This document shows positions 9,324-14,654 of a DNA stretch of 64,000 nucleotides, one piece after another. This stretch comes from Cellulomonas chitinilytica (GTDB lineage Bacteria; Actinomycetota; Actinomycetes; Actinomycetales; Cellulomonadaceae), in contig NZ_BONK01000002.1 in assembly GCF_016862675.1 (NCBI RefSeq), positions 248,001 through 312,000 on the forward strand, read 5' to 3'. The notes beneath the pieces are model-generated. The model did not search any database, had not been told where the DNA came from, and was given only the letters and a program-made list of their open reading frames with translations. Made by a program: the position numbers and the translations under genes. The stretch's first letter is position 1. Each line of letters starts with the position of its first letter.

Positions 9324-10607
9324 TCAGAGCGGCAGGAAGGGCGGGAGGTACGGTCCGTCGTCCGGGCGGTCGAGCGGCTGGTTCTGGAGGGCGGGCCGGA
9401 GCTCGGCGTACGCGGCACGCGGCGAGATCTGCCTGGCCGACGCGCGAGCGGCGACCTCACCGCTGAGCACCGCCGCGGAGAACGACGTCCCTTCCCACCT
9501 CGCCCAGCCCTCGAAGTCCGCCGACGCGGCGCCGGGCGCGGTGCCGTGACCCGTGAAGTACGTGCTGGTGACGCCCTCGCCCGCGACGAGGACGTCGATC
9601 CACTCGGCGTCCTGCGGTGTGAACGGGGACAGCTTGAAGGTCCCGGCGCCGGACCCCGGCATCGCGGAGCCGACCGCGACCACGTCGTCCAGCGCCGCGG
9701 GCCAGGACGGGACGCGGTGCTCGTCGCCGAGGCCGAGCCTCGGGTCGCCGTGGTTGCCGGCGCACGCGATGACGAGGACGTCCTGCGGCAGGCGGTCGAC
9801 CGCCGTCGAGAGCGCCAGCGGCGGCTTGTTGTCAGCCGTGTAGCAGACGAGGGAGAGGTTGAGGATCTGGATCCCGGTCCTGCCGAGCTCCACGATCGCG
9901 GTCGCGACGTCCCAGGACTTCGCGTTCCCCTTGTCGTCGAGCACGCCGCGCACGCGGACGGTCGCGCCCGGGGCGCGGTCCAGGATGAGCCCGGCGACGA
10001 ACGTGGCGTGCCCGGCCGCGAACGGCAGGGCGTCCGTCGCCGCCGGGACGGCGAGCACGTCTCGCGGCGAGTTCCCGCGGTAGCCCCCCGCCAGGTCGGG
10101 GTGGGCGAACAGGGCGGTGTCCAGGATCCCGACCGACATGCCGTCCCCGGCCGTCCCGAGCCGCCAGGAGGCCGGGCGCTTCGCCCGGGTCGGCGGCTCG
10201 CCGCCGCCGTGCGACACCGACCCGCCGCCACCGCTCACGGAGCCGACGAGCCGGTTCTTGCCCAGGGTGGGCACCCAGCCGGCGTACCGACCCTCGAACG
10301 AGGCGCGCACGCTGGTCAGCACGTCGTCGTCGTTCGCCGCCAGGCCGTGCCGCCGCCGCTTCGCCCAGGCCTGGTAGCCCGGGTGGTCCGGCGGCACGGG
10401 CGGCAGCGAGGCGACCAGGTGGTCGGCGTCCCGCGGTGCGAGCTGGAGCAGCGCGAGCCCCAGGTCGACGCTCGTGCGCTCGTCCGGCACCTCGCACCGC
10501 ACCTCGTGCCGCGCCAGGAGGCGCTGGACCAGACGGAGGTGCTCGAGCGCGACGATGGCCTCGATCGGGTCGTTCTCGGTCCCTGGTCCGTCGTGCGACA
10601 CGTCCAT
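9324..10607 (-). CDS. Cytoplasmic S8 (subtilisin-like) serine protease of the CHAT locus
   Basis: A 427-residue protein with an intact subtilase catalytic set: Asp163 (GILDTALFAHPDL), His200 (GHATFVAGLI), oxyanion Asn285 (CAGNHGDP) and Ser375 (GTSFSAAV). The first 140 residues form a separate N-terminal region not seen in secreted subtilases. There is no signal peptide, cleavable propeptide or membrane helix, so the enzyme should act inside the cell. It starts at the ATG at 10607, divergent from the CHAT gene with a 139-base shared promoter region. The context suggests it acts in a proteolytic cascade with the CHAT protease, possibly activated by it or cleaving the neighbouring regulator; that is inference. 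Confidence 0.92.
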   Translation of the reverse strand: MDVSHDGPGTENDPIEAIVALEHLRLVQRLLARHEVRCEVPDERTSVDLGLALLQLAPRDADHLVASLPPVPPDHPGYQAWAKRRRHGLAANDDDVLTSVRASFEGRYAGWVPTLGKNRLVGSVSGGGGSVSHGGGEPPTRAKRPASWRLGTAGDGMSVGILDTALFAHPDLAGGYRGNSPRDVLAVPAATDALPFAAGHATFVAGLILDRAPGATVRVRGVLDDKGNAKSWDVATAIVELGRTGIQILNLSLVCYTADNKPPLALSTAVDRLPQDVLVIACAGNHGDPRLGLGDEHRVPSWPAALDDVVAVGSAMPGSGAGTFKLSPFTPQDAEWIDVLVAGEGVTSTYFTGHGTAPGAASADFEGWARWEGTSFSAAVLSGEVAARASARQISPRAAYAELRPALQNQPLDRPDDGPYLPPFLPL

Positions 10608-10746
10608 CGTGACCCCCCCGGCAGCGCTGCCCTTGTCGGCCACTATCGCAGCCACTCATACCGGGACGAAAGGGATATCTCGTTTGTCGTTGACGGCCGG
10701 ACCGGGACTCGCGACGCTCGAAGGAGCGACGGACGAAGGGGGTGCC

Positions 10747-13512
10747 GTGACGGAGCTCGACGTGCGGGCCCAGGACGCGATGCGGCTGGCAGCCAGCGAC
10801 CCGGGGGCCGCCGCCCCGCTGGCAGCCGAGGTGTCGCGCGCCGCCAGGCACGAGCGCCGGTGGGACGTCGTCTGCGTCGCGGAACGCGCGCTCGGTGTCG
10901 CGGCGATGCAGCAGTCGAGGTTCGAGGACGCGCTCCGGCACCTGCGGGCGGCCGTCGTCGCGGGCGAGCGGGCCGCGGACCGCACCGTGACGGGTGAGGC
11001 ACGCATGAGCCTCGCGTCGGCGCTGATGCTGAGCGGTCGGCCGCAGCGGTCGTTCCGGGAGATCGACCAGGCGCTCGTCGAGCTCGACGGCCTCCCCGCG
11101 GCGCGCGCCCGGACGCAGCGGGCCGCGATCTACCAGGACCTCGGGCGTCTCGACGAGGCCCTCGAGGACCTGCGGCGCGCGCTGCCGGTCCTGCGCGCCG
11201 CGCACGACGCCCAGTGGGCGACACGCGCGCTCTCGAACCGCGGGCTCCTGCACGCGACCCGTCGTGAGTTCGCGGCCGCCCGCCGGGACCTGCGAGCCGC
11301 CGGGGAGCTGTGCGACGAGCACGGGCTGCGCGTCCCGGCGGCGTTCGTCGAGCACAACCTCGCCTGGGTGGACTCGCAGGCCGGCGACGTGCCGTCGGCG
11401 CTGCAGCACATGGCCGCCGCGACGCGCATGTTCACCGAGCTGGGCCTGTCGCCGGGCTCGCTGCTGACGGACCACGCGGAGCTGCTGCTGTCCGTCCGGC
11501 TCGTCGCCGAGGCCCGGTCCGTGGCCGAGGACGCCGTGGCCGCCGACGAGCGCGACGGGCGCCGCAACCACCTGCCGGAGTCGCGGCTGCTGCTGTCGAC
11601 GATCGCGCTCGTGCAGGGCGACACCGGCGCCGCCCTGCGCTCCGCGGAAGCCGCCTCGCGGGAGTTCGCCCGGCTGCGGCGCCGCGAGTGGGCCGCGCTC
11701 GCCGACTTCTCCCGGGTGCAGGCGCTGGCCGCCGCGGACGGACCGGTGACACCGGCGCGGTGCCGTCGCGCCGCCGACGCCCTGTCGGAGGCGGGCTGGA
11801 CGGTGCCCGCGCTCGAGGCGCGGCTGCTGGCCGGCCGGCTCGCGCTCCGCCGCGGCCGGGCCGCCGACGCGCGGCGCGACTTCGCGATGGCCGGGCGCGC
11901 ACGGCACCTCGGTCCGGCCGACGCCCGGGCGCGCGCCTGGCTCGGCGAGGCCATGCTGCGCGAGGCCGACGGCCGGCGTGGTGGCGCGGTGTCCGCCTTG
12001 CGCGCAGGCATCCGGGTGCTCGAGGACCACCGGGCCACGATCGGCGCGACGGAGCTGCGTGCCCACGTCTCGATCAACCGTGGCGCCATCGCCCGGATGG
12101 GGATGCAGCTCGCCGTCGAGGACCACGACGCACGCGCGTCGCTGTGGTGGGCGGAGTGCGCCAAGGCGACCGCCGCCCCCGCGCGCGACGCCCGGCCACC
12201 GACCGACGCCGCGCTGGCGGACCTGCTCGCCGACCTGCGCGGCGTGATGGACTCGGTCGACGAACGGCGCAGCTCCCAGCAGCCGACGGGCGCGCTCGTC
12301 GCCCGGCAGGTGGCGCTCGAGCGGGAGATCCGCGACCACTGCCGGCGGCACCCGGGCAGCAGCGCGCGCAGCGTCCTGCCGCCCGACGTGGCGACCCTGG
12401 CGGACGCGCTCGGCGACGCGGCGCTGATCGAGTTCGTGGAGCTCGCCGACGAGCTCCTCGCCGTGACCGTGGTCGGGGGCCGCGCGAGGCTGCACCGTCT
12501 CGGCCCGACGGCGCACGTCGCCGCGCTCGTCGAGCAGATCCCGTTCGCGCTGCGCCGGCTGGCCCGCGACCGCGGCGGCGACGGGAACGGTGCCGAGCAC
12601 CACCGCACCGGCGCCCGCAACGGCGCCGCGAGCGTCGTGGCGGCCGCCGGCCTGCTCGCGCAGGCCTGCGCCGCGCTCGGCGAGGCGCTCCTGCGCCCGG
12701 TGCTCACGGCCGTCGCCGACCGGCCGCTCGTCGTGGTCCCGACGGGGTCGCTGCACTCCGTCCCGTGGTCGCTGCTGCCGGCCTGCACCGGCCGTGCGGT
12801 CAGCGTGAGCCCGTCCGCGACGCTCTGGCACGTCGCGTCCGGGTCGACGAGCCCGGCGGGCCGGACCGTCGTCGTCGCCGGCCCCGGGCTGCCCGGGGCC
12901 CGGGCGGAGGCGGAGGTCGTGGCCGGTCTGCACGAGTCCCCCGTCGTCCTCGTCGGCGACGAGGCGACGGCACGGAACGTGTCGCACGCGATGGACGGAG
13001 CCGCGCTCGTGCACCTGGCGGCCCACGGCCGGGTCAGGTCGGACAACCCGCAGTTCTCGTCGCTGGCGCTCGCCGACGGGCCGTTCACGGTGTACGACCT
13101 CGAGCGGCTCGACCGCGCGCCGCACCAGGTCGTGCTCGCCGCGTGCGACACCGGGAGGTCCGCGCTGGTCGCCGGCGGCGAGATCCTCGGGTTCACCTCG
13201 GCGCTCCTGGCCGGGGGCACGGCCACGCTCGTCGCGCCCGTCGTGCCCGTGCCGGACATCGCGACCGTCGACCTGATGCGGGCGTACCACCGCGGGCTCG
13301 CGGCGGGTCACCCACCGGCCCACGCGCTCGCCGCCGCGCAGGAGGCGATGGGTCGGCGGGACCACGCCTCGCTCGCGGCGGCGGCGGGGTTCGTCCAGCT
13401 CGGGTACGGCGGGCAGCCGCACGCCACGGCGCCCGGGGTATCACCGGTGCCCGCTCGGCGCTCCTCCGTTCATGACACGCTGCTGACCATCCCTGGGGGC
13501 GCCAGGACTTGA
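10747..13512 (+). CDS. TPR-CHAT domain protein (caspase-fold protease)
   Basis: A 921-residue soluble protein. Residues about 1-480 are TPR-like helical repeats, for example FEDALRHLRAAV and LDEALEDLRRALPVL. Residues about 650-890 form a CHAT domain (caspase HetF associated with TPRs) with the predicted catalytic pair His760 (VHLAAHGRV) and Cys800 (LAACDTG). CHAT proteins are clan CD cysteine proteases; the TPR part usually senses a partner or ligand and releases protease activity. There is no signal peptide or membrane helix. The GTG at 10747 is preceded by GAAGGGGG. The next gene begins 28 bases downstream. Bordering subtilase and sigma genes suggest a regulated proteolysis module with an unknown trigger. 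Confidence 0.92.
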   Translation: MTELDVRAQDAMRLAASDPGAAAPLAAEVSRAARHERRWDVVCVAERALGVAAMQQSRFEDALRHLRAAVVAGERAADRTVTGEARMSLASALMLSGRPQRSFREIDQALVELDGLPAARARTQRAAIYQDLGRLDEALEDLRRALPVLRAAHDAQWATRALSNRGLLHATRREFAAARRDLRAAGELCDEHGLRVPAAFVEHNLAWVDSQAGDVPSALQHMAAATRMFTELGLSPGSLLTDHAELLLSVRLVAEARSVAEDAVAADERDGRRNHLPESRLLLSTIALVQGDTGAALRSAEAASREFARLRRREWAALADFSRVQALAAADGPVTPARCRRAADALSEAGWTVPALEARLLAGRLALRRGRAADARRDFAMAGRARHLGPADARARAWLGEAMLREADGRRGGAVSALRAGIRVLEDHRATIGATELRAHVSINRGAIARMGMQLAVEDHDARASLWWAECAKATAAPARDARPPTDAALADLLADLRGVMDSVDERRSSQQPTGALVARQVALEREIRDHCRRHPGSSARSVLPPDVATLADALGDAALIEFVELADELLAVTVVGGRARLHRLGPTAHVAALVEQIPFALRRLARDRGGDGNGAEHHRTGARNGAASVVAAAGLLAQACAALGEALLRPVLTAVADRPLVVVPTGSLHSVPWSLLPACTGRAVSVSPSATLWHVASGSTSPAGRTVVVAGPGLPGARAEAEVVAGLHESPVVLVGDEATARNVSHAMDGAALVHLAAHGRVRSDNPQFSSLALADGPFTVYDLERLDRAPHQVVLAACDTGRSALVAGGEILGFTSALLAGGTATLVAPVVPVPDIATVDLMRAYHRGLAAGHPPAHALAAAQEAMGRRDHASLAAAAGFVQLGYGGQPHATAPGVSPVPARRSSVHDTLLTIPGGART

Positions 13513-13540
13513 CGCGACCGTCGTCGGGTGGAAGGTAAGG

Positions 13541-14062
13541 GTGTCGGGCCCGCCGGGCACGACGGCGGACCACGACGACGAGCGACGGGTGACGCACATG
13601 ACGCAGCCACGGTGGTCCGACGACGACCAGCTGCTGGCGGACGTGCAGCGAGCGCTCGCCGCGGCGGCGGTCGACGACCACGTGCTCGAGTCGGGCAAGG
13701 CCGCGTTCGCCTGGCGCACCGTCGACTCGGAGCTCGCCGAGCTCACCTACGACTCCCTGCTCGACGACGGCGCCGCCGTACGGGGCGGGACGTCCGAGAG
13801 CGGGACGGTCGAGATGCGCAGCCTCGCGTTCGAGGCGGGATCCGTCACGGTGGAGCTCGACGTCAGCCCGACCCGGATCGTCGGCCAGCTCGTCCCCGGA
13901 CGGCAGGGCGTGATCGTCCTGCAGGCGCCGACCGGTGAGGTCGGGCGCGTGGCGTCGGACGAGTCCGGCTACTTCGCGATCGCGGCACCCGCCGAGCCGC
14001 TGGTCCGCGTGCGGTGCACGACCGATCTGGGGTCGGTCGTCACGGACTGGGTGCGACTCTGA
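13541..14062 (+). CDS. Small unknown protein of the CHAT-subtilase-sigma locus
   Basis: A 173-residue soluble protein with two parts. The N-terminal half contains SGKAAFAWRTVDSELAELTYD. The C-terminal half resembles a carboxypeptidase-regulatory/Ig-like beta sandwich (GQLVPGRQGVIVLQAP, ending SVVTDWVRL). I recall proteins of this pattern beside sigma factors and CHAT genes in other actinobacteria, but none with a proven function. It follows the CHAT gene by 28 bases on the same strand, and its last 23 bases overlap the 3' end of the sigma gene on the other strand. An anti-sigma role is possible but only inferred. The GTG at 13541 follows GGAAGG; an ATG at 13598 is an alternative start. Confidence 0.75.
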   Translation: MSGPPGTTADHDDERRVTHMTQPRWSDDDQLLADVQRALAAAAVDDHVLESGKAAFAWRTVDSELAELTYDSLLDDGAAVRGGTSESGTVEMRSLAFEAGSVTVELDVSPTRIVGQLVPGRQGVIVLQAPTGEVGRVASDESGYFAIAAPAEPLVRVRCTTDLGSVVTDWVRL

Positions 14063-14654
14063 CGTCGGCGCCCTCGCCGATCGCACCGGCGATCGCCGGG
14101 TGCTCGCGGAGCCTGCGCAGCGCACGGCTGCGCGTCGGCCCGATGCTGCCCACCGGGATGCCGAGGCGGCGTCCGATCTCCACGTAGCTCAGCGGCGGGT
14201 CGTGGAGCAGCAGCAGGAGCAGCTCGCGGTGCGCCGACGGCAGGTCCGCGAACGCCCGGAGCAGCATCTCGTGGCGGTCCGCCTCGGTGAGGCCGTCGAC
14301 GACCTCGGTGTCGACGGGCACGACGTCGGGGTCCTCCCGCTCGGCGGTCGCGTCGAGCGGGTCGAACGGCTGGGAGCGCCGGCGCAGCCGGAGGGTCCGG
14401 AGGCACTCGTGCCGGACGGTCGTGACGATCCAGCCCGGCAGCGCCTCGGGTTCCCGGATGTCCGCCAGGTGCTCCACGAGCCGCAGCCACAGGGTCTGGA
14501 CGACGTCCTCGACGTCGGCGCGGGCGAGGCGGAAGCGGTGCGCGACGGACAGCACCAGGGGGCTGAACCGTTCCACGAGGCCGTTCCACGCGACCTGGTC
14601 CCCCTCGGCGGCGCGACGCACGAGGTCGGCCACGCTGGAACCGTCGAGGTCCAT
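14040..14654 (-). CDS. Sigma-70 family RNA polymerase sigma factor, ECF-like
   Basis: A 204-residue sigma factor with region 2 at about residues 10-85 (VEDVVQTLWLRLVEHLADI) and region 4 at about 130-185, including the helix-turn-helix SYVEIGRRLGIPVGSIGPTR. There is no sigma-3 domain, so it is ECF-sized. The ATG at 14654 has a strong GGAGGAAGG upstream. It converges with, and overlaps by 23 bases, the small unknown gene that follows the CHAT protease; this arrangement argues that it controls, or is controlled by, that locus. Likely targets include the 139-base divergent region between the subtilase and CHAT genes, where I could not find a confident ECF promoter. Confidence 0.9.
   Translation of the reverse strand: MDLDGSSVADLVRRAAEGDQVAWNGLVERFSPLVLSVAHRFRLARADVEDVVQTLWLRLVEHLADIREPEALPGWIVTTVRHECLRTLRLRRRSQPFDPLDATAEREDPDVVPVDTEVVDGLTEADRHEMLLRAFADLPSAHRELLLLLLHDPPLSYVEIGRRLGIPVGSIGPTRSRALRRLREHPAIAGAIGEGADVRVAPSP

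Follow-up and report, generated by a model that had tools for sequence, protein, structure and literature searches.

What could bring two different proteases, a small protein and a sigma factor together in the cytoplasm of one bacterium? This question is raised by a four-gene locus in the 4.9-Mb genome of Cellulomonas chitinilytica, within a stretch of 64,000 nucleotides (contig C2, positions 248001 to 312000) that was analyzed as a whole and is referred to here as the window; its nearest named loci are those of Cellulomonas. The locus encodes a subtilase (S8 peptidase), a CHAT protease with tetratricopeptide repeats (TPR-CHAT protease), a small protein and a sigma factor of the extracytoplasmic function (ECF) type. 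Our answer, which we hold to be about evenly balanced between right and wrong, is that this is a module of the ECF54 type, in which cytoplasmic proteolysis gates the sigma factor and the small protein is the partner that is cleaved. Two lines of evidence carry this reading, namely, how closely the small protein and the sigma factor are linked, and a promoter-like motif that recurs at module loci.

A 2022 review (PMC8999054), in its passages on ECF54, gives a CHAT protein, a subtilase and a "carboxypeptidase" as the conserved context of this group in Actinobacteria and proposes control by proteolysis. Its section 3.3 states the proposal as one without an anti-sigma factor, the proteases degrading the sigma factor until a signal stops them, and among the sigma groups covered there, only for ECF282 (AntA) is proteolytic control described as shown experimentally. 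The gene set and the idea of proteolysis are already in print for ECF54, and the reassignment of the small protein and the motif are what is added here. The window protein has the ECF architecture, with matches to Pfam PF04542 (region 2; 4.3e-14), PF04545 (region 4; 7e-7) and NCBIfam sigma70-ECF (8.6e-21) in 204 amino acids and no large extension, and it stands in the ECF54 context of CHAT, subtilase and carboxypeptidase-like protein.

Relatives of the locus were annotated with profiles made from the window proteins, giving 40 rows (the window and L034 to L072) that represent 39 distinct loci, as L035 and L055 are the same contig stretch. All rows except the window and L047 were picked for the small protein, and the figures are conditional on that choice. 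With this proviso, the sigma gene adjoins the small gene in 40/40 rows, CHAT is present in 39 (not in L061) and S8 is present in 37 (not in L047, L061 or L068); all four families occur together in 37 of the 40 rows and in 16 of 20 held-out stretches. The sigma gene was also found beside the small gene in 26 of 29 loci of the phylum sample, which have short flanks. In pairwise comparisons of divergence across 40 loci, the sigma-small pair gave the best Pearson correlation of the six pairs (0.895), with a partial correlation of 0.624 given the other two proteins. The remaining pairs followed at 0.845 (CHAT-small), 0.838 (CHAT-sigma), 0.796 (S8-CHAT), 0.740 (S8-sigma) and 0.733 (S8-small), and other partial correlations were 0.434 for S8-CHAT, 0.328 for CHAT-small and 0.059 for S8-small. 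By sequence comparison, no other gene of the set is linked as closely to the sigma gene as that for the small protein, given that the two are adjacent and their divergence covaries.

The second line of evidence, a bipartite promoter-like motif, suggests by its placement a tie between the small protein and the sigma factor. Its loose form, GTATC[ACT]-N16/17-CTC, was set by reading the discovery loci, and only the hold-out, which comprises 20 longer stretches from class genomes unused in motif discovery, is a fair test. In the discovery loci, 42 sites (spacers of 14 to 17) lay near module starts, where the remainder of these loci would predict 1.8, and 38 of 54 loci had a site; by single spacer, there were 28 near module starts at 16, 14 at 17 and 0 to 7 elsewhere between 8 and 24. 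Behind 42 sites with spacers of 16 and 17, the first module gene was that for sigma in 21 cases, S8 in 13 and the small protein in 8, with CHAT in none; if gaps are disregarded, the small gene is among the module genes that follow on the same strand in 39 of these 42 cases. In the window-type loci, which have a convergent sigma gene (the window, L034, L036, L054 and L055), the site precedes the small gene in 5/5, and the site at 13438, within the end of CHAT, is the sole match to the loose pattern in the 64 kb of the window. When sites were counted per transcription unit together with the 1,000 bases upstream, 45 of 56 small-protein units had a site in the discovery set (45 sites versus 3.5 at control spacers), as did 18 of 20 in the hold-out (19 sites versus 0.75). 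In all long loci taken together, spacer 16 accounts for 67 sites and spacer 17 for 30, versus 2 to 19 at spacers 12 to 15 and 18 to 21.

The small protein itself probably starts at ATG 13598 with MTQPRW and not at GTG 13541, because its relatives likewise begin at MTQPRW. An AlphaFold2 model consists of three helices, a flexible linker and a CarboxypepD_reg-like (immunoglobulin-like) beta-sandwich, with residues 53 to 62, between the helices and the sandwich, at a predicted local distance difference test (pLDDT) score below 50. PF13620 (carboxypeptidase regulatory-like) matched 12 of 30 scanned family members at an E value of ≤0.05 and gave no match to the window's own protein; one relative, P0150, carries such a name at NCBI. 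The protein is probably the "carboxypeptidase" of the ECF54 literature. A catalytic carboxypeptidase was considered and rejected in view of its 154 amino acids, its helices-plus-sandwich model and the lack of a peptidase family match in Pfam (E of ≤0.1 for the window protein and ≤0.05 for the 30 family members). It was likewise rejected as a membrane or zinc anti-sigma factor, as it has neither a hydrophobic helix nor a known anti-sigma Pfam domain. The small protein was detected in 49 of 150 family genomes, many of these being weak matches near the 1e-3 limit, in 45 of 396 genomes of the phylum sample and in 130 of 394 of the class sample.

Both proteases appear intact. In the aligned rows, the CHAT dyad is conserved at His760 (47/48) and Cys800 (47/47), and the dyad within the CHAT domain places the protein among the CHAT peptidases. 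The S8 residues, numbered from MDVS and corresponding to Asp179, His216, Asn301 and Ser391 of P0001, are conserved in the aligned rows with a residue there at Asp163 (40/40), His200 (45/45), Asn285 (45/45) and Ser375 (45/45), and the Asp/His/Ser triad is that of a subtilase. A type VII secretion system mycosin was rejected for S8, which scored 74.6 bits against a cutoff of 278.75 for NCBIfam TIGR03921 and has no signal or membrane helix by hydropathy. The AlphaFold2 model of CHAT (16 sequences) has a pLDDT of 83.7 and a predicted template modeling score of 0.75, with values below 50 in the loop right after Cys800 (residues 802 to 811) and in the tail (891 to 921). Separase and Csx29 were the top Foldseek matches, and the structural Z scores ranked LGN, a TPR protein (28.0 over 317 residues), before separase (27.5) and Csx29 (26.4). 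Both the profile and the model of CHAT match not only Csx29 but DdvA as well, a relative in sequence over the CHAT part (4.8e-8) whose PDB title is transmembrane anti-sigma factor; given the fold match to Csx29 and the sequence match to DdvA, at least two further settings connect CHAT proteins with the control of sigma factors.

The features of the locus are listed below.

Table 1. Features of the four-gene locus, in window positions
Feature	Position	Strand	Remarks
Subtilase (S8 peptidase), cytoplasmic	9324..10607	-	Start MDVS; Pfam PF00082, 4.2e-17; Asp163/His200/Asn285/Ser375
Housekeeping-type promoter-like site for CHAT, TTGACG-N17-GACGCT	10690..10718	+	By eye
TPR-CHAT protease	10747..13512	+	Pfam CHAT, 4.7e-40, and TPR; His760/Cys800
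Promoter-like site GTATCA-N17-CTC	13438..13463	+	Within low-confidence C-terminal tail of CHAT; 160 bases upstream of small gene
Small protein, 154 amino acids	13598..14062	+	Three helices, low-confidence linker, CarboxypepD_reg-like beta-sandwich; candidate sigma partner or inhibitor
ECF-type sigma factor, ECF54-like by gene context	14040..14654	-	Pfam regions 2 and 4

Much of the initial annotation of this DNA was borne out. Pfam and the aligned relatives support the four genes with their catalytic residues, and hydropathy agrees with its statement that the products have no signal peptide or membrane helix, none having been seen in the four proteins (best 19-residue Kyte-Doolittle means of 1.27 for S8, 1.76 for CHAT, 0.89 for the small protein and 0.89 for sigma). 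The sigma gene does converge on the small gene, and the two overlap tail to tail by 23 bases. Its 28-base gap between CHAT and the small gene, which assumed the GTG start, is probably one of 85 bases. That similar gene sets occur in other actinobacteria, as it had stated, is confirmed by the rows above, and its idea that proteolysis controls the sigma factor is plausible and had been put forward for ECF54; the locus was not, however, uncharacterized in the sense of unnoticed, as the group is named in the cited review. The check that it proposed, neighborhood conservation, gave a divided answer: gene content is conserved but order varies. A glyoxalase-type protein and a beta-lactamase-type hydrolase flank the locus without an evident link to it. 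An element of the form TTGACG-N17-GACNNT is also readable upstream of CHAT in L054, L055 and L036, and none was seen in L034 by eye, without statistics.

The four-gene set recurs across Actinomycetota in varying order. The 19 named loci comprise 2 from Cellulomonas, 7 from Pseudonocardia, 7 from Streptomyces, 1 from Candidatus Microthrix and 2 less defined actinobacterial records. At least four arrangements occur among the 40 rows: S8 divergent from CHAT-small with sigma convergent (only in the five distinct window-type loci), CHAT divergent from S8-sigma-small, a codirectional sigma-small-S8-CHAT order, and others. At locus L108 (G502 C77, 22000 to 41000), a span of 10 kb contains three small-protein genes, of which one lies next to sigma and the other two next to S8 and CHAT. 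The C. chitinilytica genome has three copies of the module, those on C3 (sigma and CHAT each 65% identical) and C1 (sigma 37%, CHAT 31%) in addition to that in the window. S8 was not found at the C1 copy, beside which lies a divergent trypsin-like gene with FTEP repeats. This gene (L047, 12735 to 14705; C1, ~254734 to 256704) encodes long FTEPFTEP-type repeats, is divergent from the sigma-small-CHAT copy, has GTATCA-N16-CTC upstream and holds the place that the subtilase has in the other copies. The module lies between rplA and rplJ in 17 of 20 family stretches (L037 to L053, including the C1 copy), the remaining three being of window type. The core order nusG-rplK-rplA-module-rplJ-rplL is found in 17/17 of these, with L040 and L052 having one side only on the contig; the neighbors L1, L10 and L7/L12 were assigned by Pfam in L047 and by phmmer elsewhere. 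No ribosomal neighbors were found in the stretches read of the named loci L054 to L072.

In some genomes, the motif is also found ahead of the subtilase, the trypsin-like stand-in or a regulator that is a LuxR-type ATPase; if the sigma factor reads it, the targets may extend beyond the module. The C. chitinilytica genome contains 18 GTATCA-N16/17-CTC sites, compared with 2 for the reversed pattern, 4 at spacers 12 and 13, and 10 at spacers 20 and 21; of these 10, 5 coincide with sites already counted, whose CTC is repeated. This is the highest number among 60 genus genomes, most of which have 0 to 8; eight have 9 to 14, and one of these has 9 in its own control. Some of the 18 sites must be due to chance. 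By eye, 14 of the 18 stand shortly before an open reading frame, the start codon having been chosen by us in several cases. Among the genes behind them are both small genes of window type, the trypsin-like gene and, close to the C3 copy, two genes that have no Pfam match. Others encode a LuxR-type ATPase (AAA_16, GerE), a P450, a MIR-domain protein and a DoxX-type protein; there is also an AMP-ligase unit whose first gene appears to encode an acyl carrier protein, and several further genes lack a Pfam match. In four hold-out loci (L165, L166, L167 and L170), a second site lies before a LuxR-type ATPase beyond CHAT, as assigned by Pfam on L166 only, the L165 gene reading in two pieces. A LuxR-type ATPase thus follows the motif repeatedly, in two groups that are far apart, namely, C. 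chitinilytica and these four loci. The two genes without Pfam matches (L148 and L150; C3, 9409 and 20854) flank the C3 copy, each with the motif upstream, and are possible targets. At L103 (8675 to 11194), a small gene with the motif upstream is followed by an AMP-binding enzyme, with no matching sigma, CHAT or S8 within 18 kb; the AMP-ligase unit of C. chitinilytica (L153, L185) likewise has the motif upstream.

Taken together, these data are consistent with the following scheme, in which binding, inhibition, cleavage, the signal and the reading of the motif by this sigma factor are what we infer. The small protein would bind the sigma factor through its N-terminal helices and hold it back until the TPR part senses a signal and the CHAT protease is thereby activated. 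CHAT, alone or with the subtilase, would then cut the small protein in its flexible linker or otherwise remove it, and the freed sigma factor would start transcription at GTATCA-N16/17-CTC promoters. These may drive the small protein, as a feedback, and the sigma gene or the subtilase as well in the majority of arrangements, together with some other genes, including that for the LuxR-type ATPase regulator.

Several observations weigh against this scheme. The small protein has no Pfam anti-sigma family match (window protein and 30 family members), and among PDB matches of its profile at E values of up to 1, the Csx30 chain was not found. The divergence correlations are uncorrected for the species tree. 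In the first dyad screen upstream of sigma (45 loci), GTATC-N16-CCTC came out on top with 8 loci, and the highest shuffle also reached 8. Within a strict 350-base zone, the hold-out gave 6 near sites versus 1.2 expected, in 6 of 20 loci, a zone that missed sites further upstream, the profile beginning well inside S8; per unit, 11 of the 56 units in the discovery set and 2 of the 20 in the hold-out lacked a site, and 7 of the 20 hold-out genomes belong to one genus (g33) resembling the Streptomyces of the discovery set. Finally, the four-gene set is not obligatory, because there are sigma-small pairs without CHAT or S8 in the stretch read (L110 to L113, L174 and L176) and small genes without a matching sigma (L103, L106, L107 and L171).

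The published ECF54 proposal, in which the proteases degrade the sigma factor itself, agrees with the intact catalytic residues of both enzymes and remains a serious contender, if an unlikely one. Against it, the small protein, which is probably the "carboxypeptidase" of that proposal, shows no peptidase domain and may be a dedicated sigma partner; its gene is also the one with the closest tie to sigma, and its unit carries the motif. The small protein is linked to both sides, to sigma and to CHAT/S8, because of the pair-only loci on the one hand and the L108 small genes beside CHAT/S8 without a sigma of their own on the other. It might be a product or helper, induced by a sigma factor that is activated otherwise and serving CHAT or the subtilase as an adaptor, substrate carrier or effector. 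That a motif site stands ahead of the small gene in the five window-type loci, although sigma is not part of the unit there, and that two of the three small genes at L108 stand beside CHAT and S8 would fit, but a feedback-regulated inhibitor would look alike, and divergence correlates most strongly with sigma while the partial correlation between S8 and the small protein is close to nil; we regard this as quite unlikely.

A cell suicide system, one of the readings in the initial annotation, or an antiphage system in which CHAT and the subtilase kill the cell appears highly improbable. CHAT proteins are known from bacterial conflict systems, according to the part of PMC10907252 that treats them, and the PADLOC subtilase model matches S8 at 8.2e-10, but the other PADLOC matches have E values of only 0.01 to 0.03 (neighboring defense genes were not searched systematically). 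No finding hints at killing; three copies in one genome and the sigma-and-promoter logic argue against it, and, because the module in L037 to L053 sits stably among ribosomal protein genes, beside or between rplA and rplJ, this shared place points to regulation more than to a mobile system that kills. The varying order could be taken to mean that the four genes are unrelated chance neighbors in this genome, a reading that is contradicted by the joint occurrence of all four families in the rows and held-out stretches and to which we give next to no credence.

The results name a likely sigma partner, question the carboxypeptidase idea and offer a concrete promoter motif, so that the central questions of ECF54, the substrate of the proteases and the targets of the sigma factor, become testable.

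Compared with ECF54 as covered in the review, the locus shares an ECF sigma factor with CHAT, subtilase and a third gene, as well as the proposed proteolytic control, but the third protein is predicted here to have a noncatalytic fold and to be a candidate sigma partner, and a promoter-like motif is described. Separase is eukaryotic, and its likeness to the window CHAT is one of fold. DdvA (PDB 8rot and 8rw5) is titled a transmembrane anti-sigma factor, whereas hydropathy gives no membrane helix for the CHAT protein of the window. In the CalpL-CalpT-CalpS system, as described in the part of PMC12751052 concerned, CalpL cuts the anti-sigma factor CalpT and the sigma factor is freed, as proposed here; CalpL, however, is a Lon-SAVED protein driven by cyclic tetra-adenylate, and no such Pfam domains matched in the four window proteins. 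Closest is the type III-E CRISPR system, in which, according to the account of it in PMC10028731, the TPR-CHAT protease Csx29 cuts Csx30, an inhibitor of the ECF factor CASP-sigma. Both have a TPR-CHAT protease, the one in the window with a Csx29-like fold, an ECF sigma factor, a third protein between them and motif sites in their own locus. They differ in that the small protein here has 154 amino acids and no sequence match to Csx30, the comparison of folds covering mainly the sandwich, in that a subtilase is present, and in that cleavage is surmised here; CRISPR genes were not searched for. Somewhat more tentatively than the scheme itself, we propose that ECF54 loci are a CRISPR-independent, chromosomal counterpart of Csx29-Csx30-CASP-sigma, with a new class of cytoplasmic anti-sigma factor, built of three helices and a CarboxypepD_reg-like sandwich, whose synthesis would be driven by sigma from the motif and which would be destroyed by soluble CHAT together with a subtilase or its trypsin-like stand-in. 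If so, ECF54, described as having "no anti-sigma factor," would become a large family of sigma switches that are gated by proteases and have a regulon that can be predicted. Should the parallel to Csx29-Csx30 hold, a protease-sigma switch that is widespread in bacteria may have been taken over by CRISPR systems.

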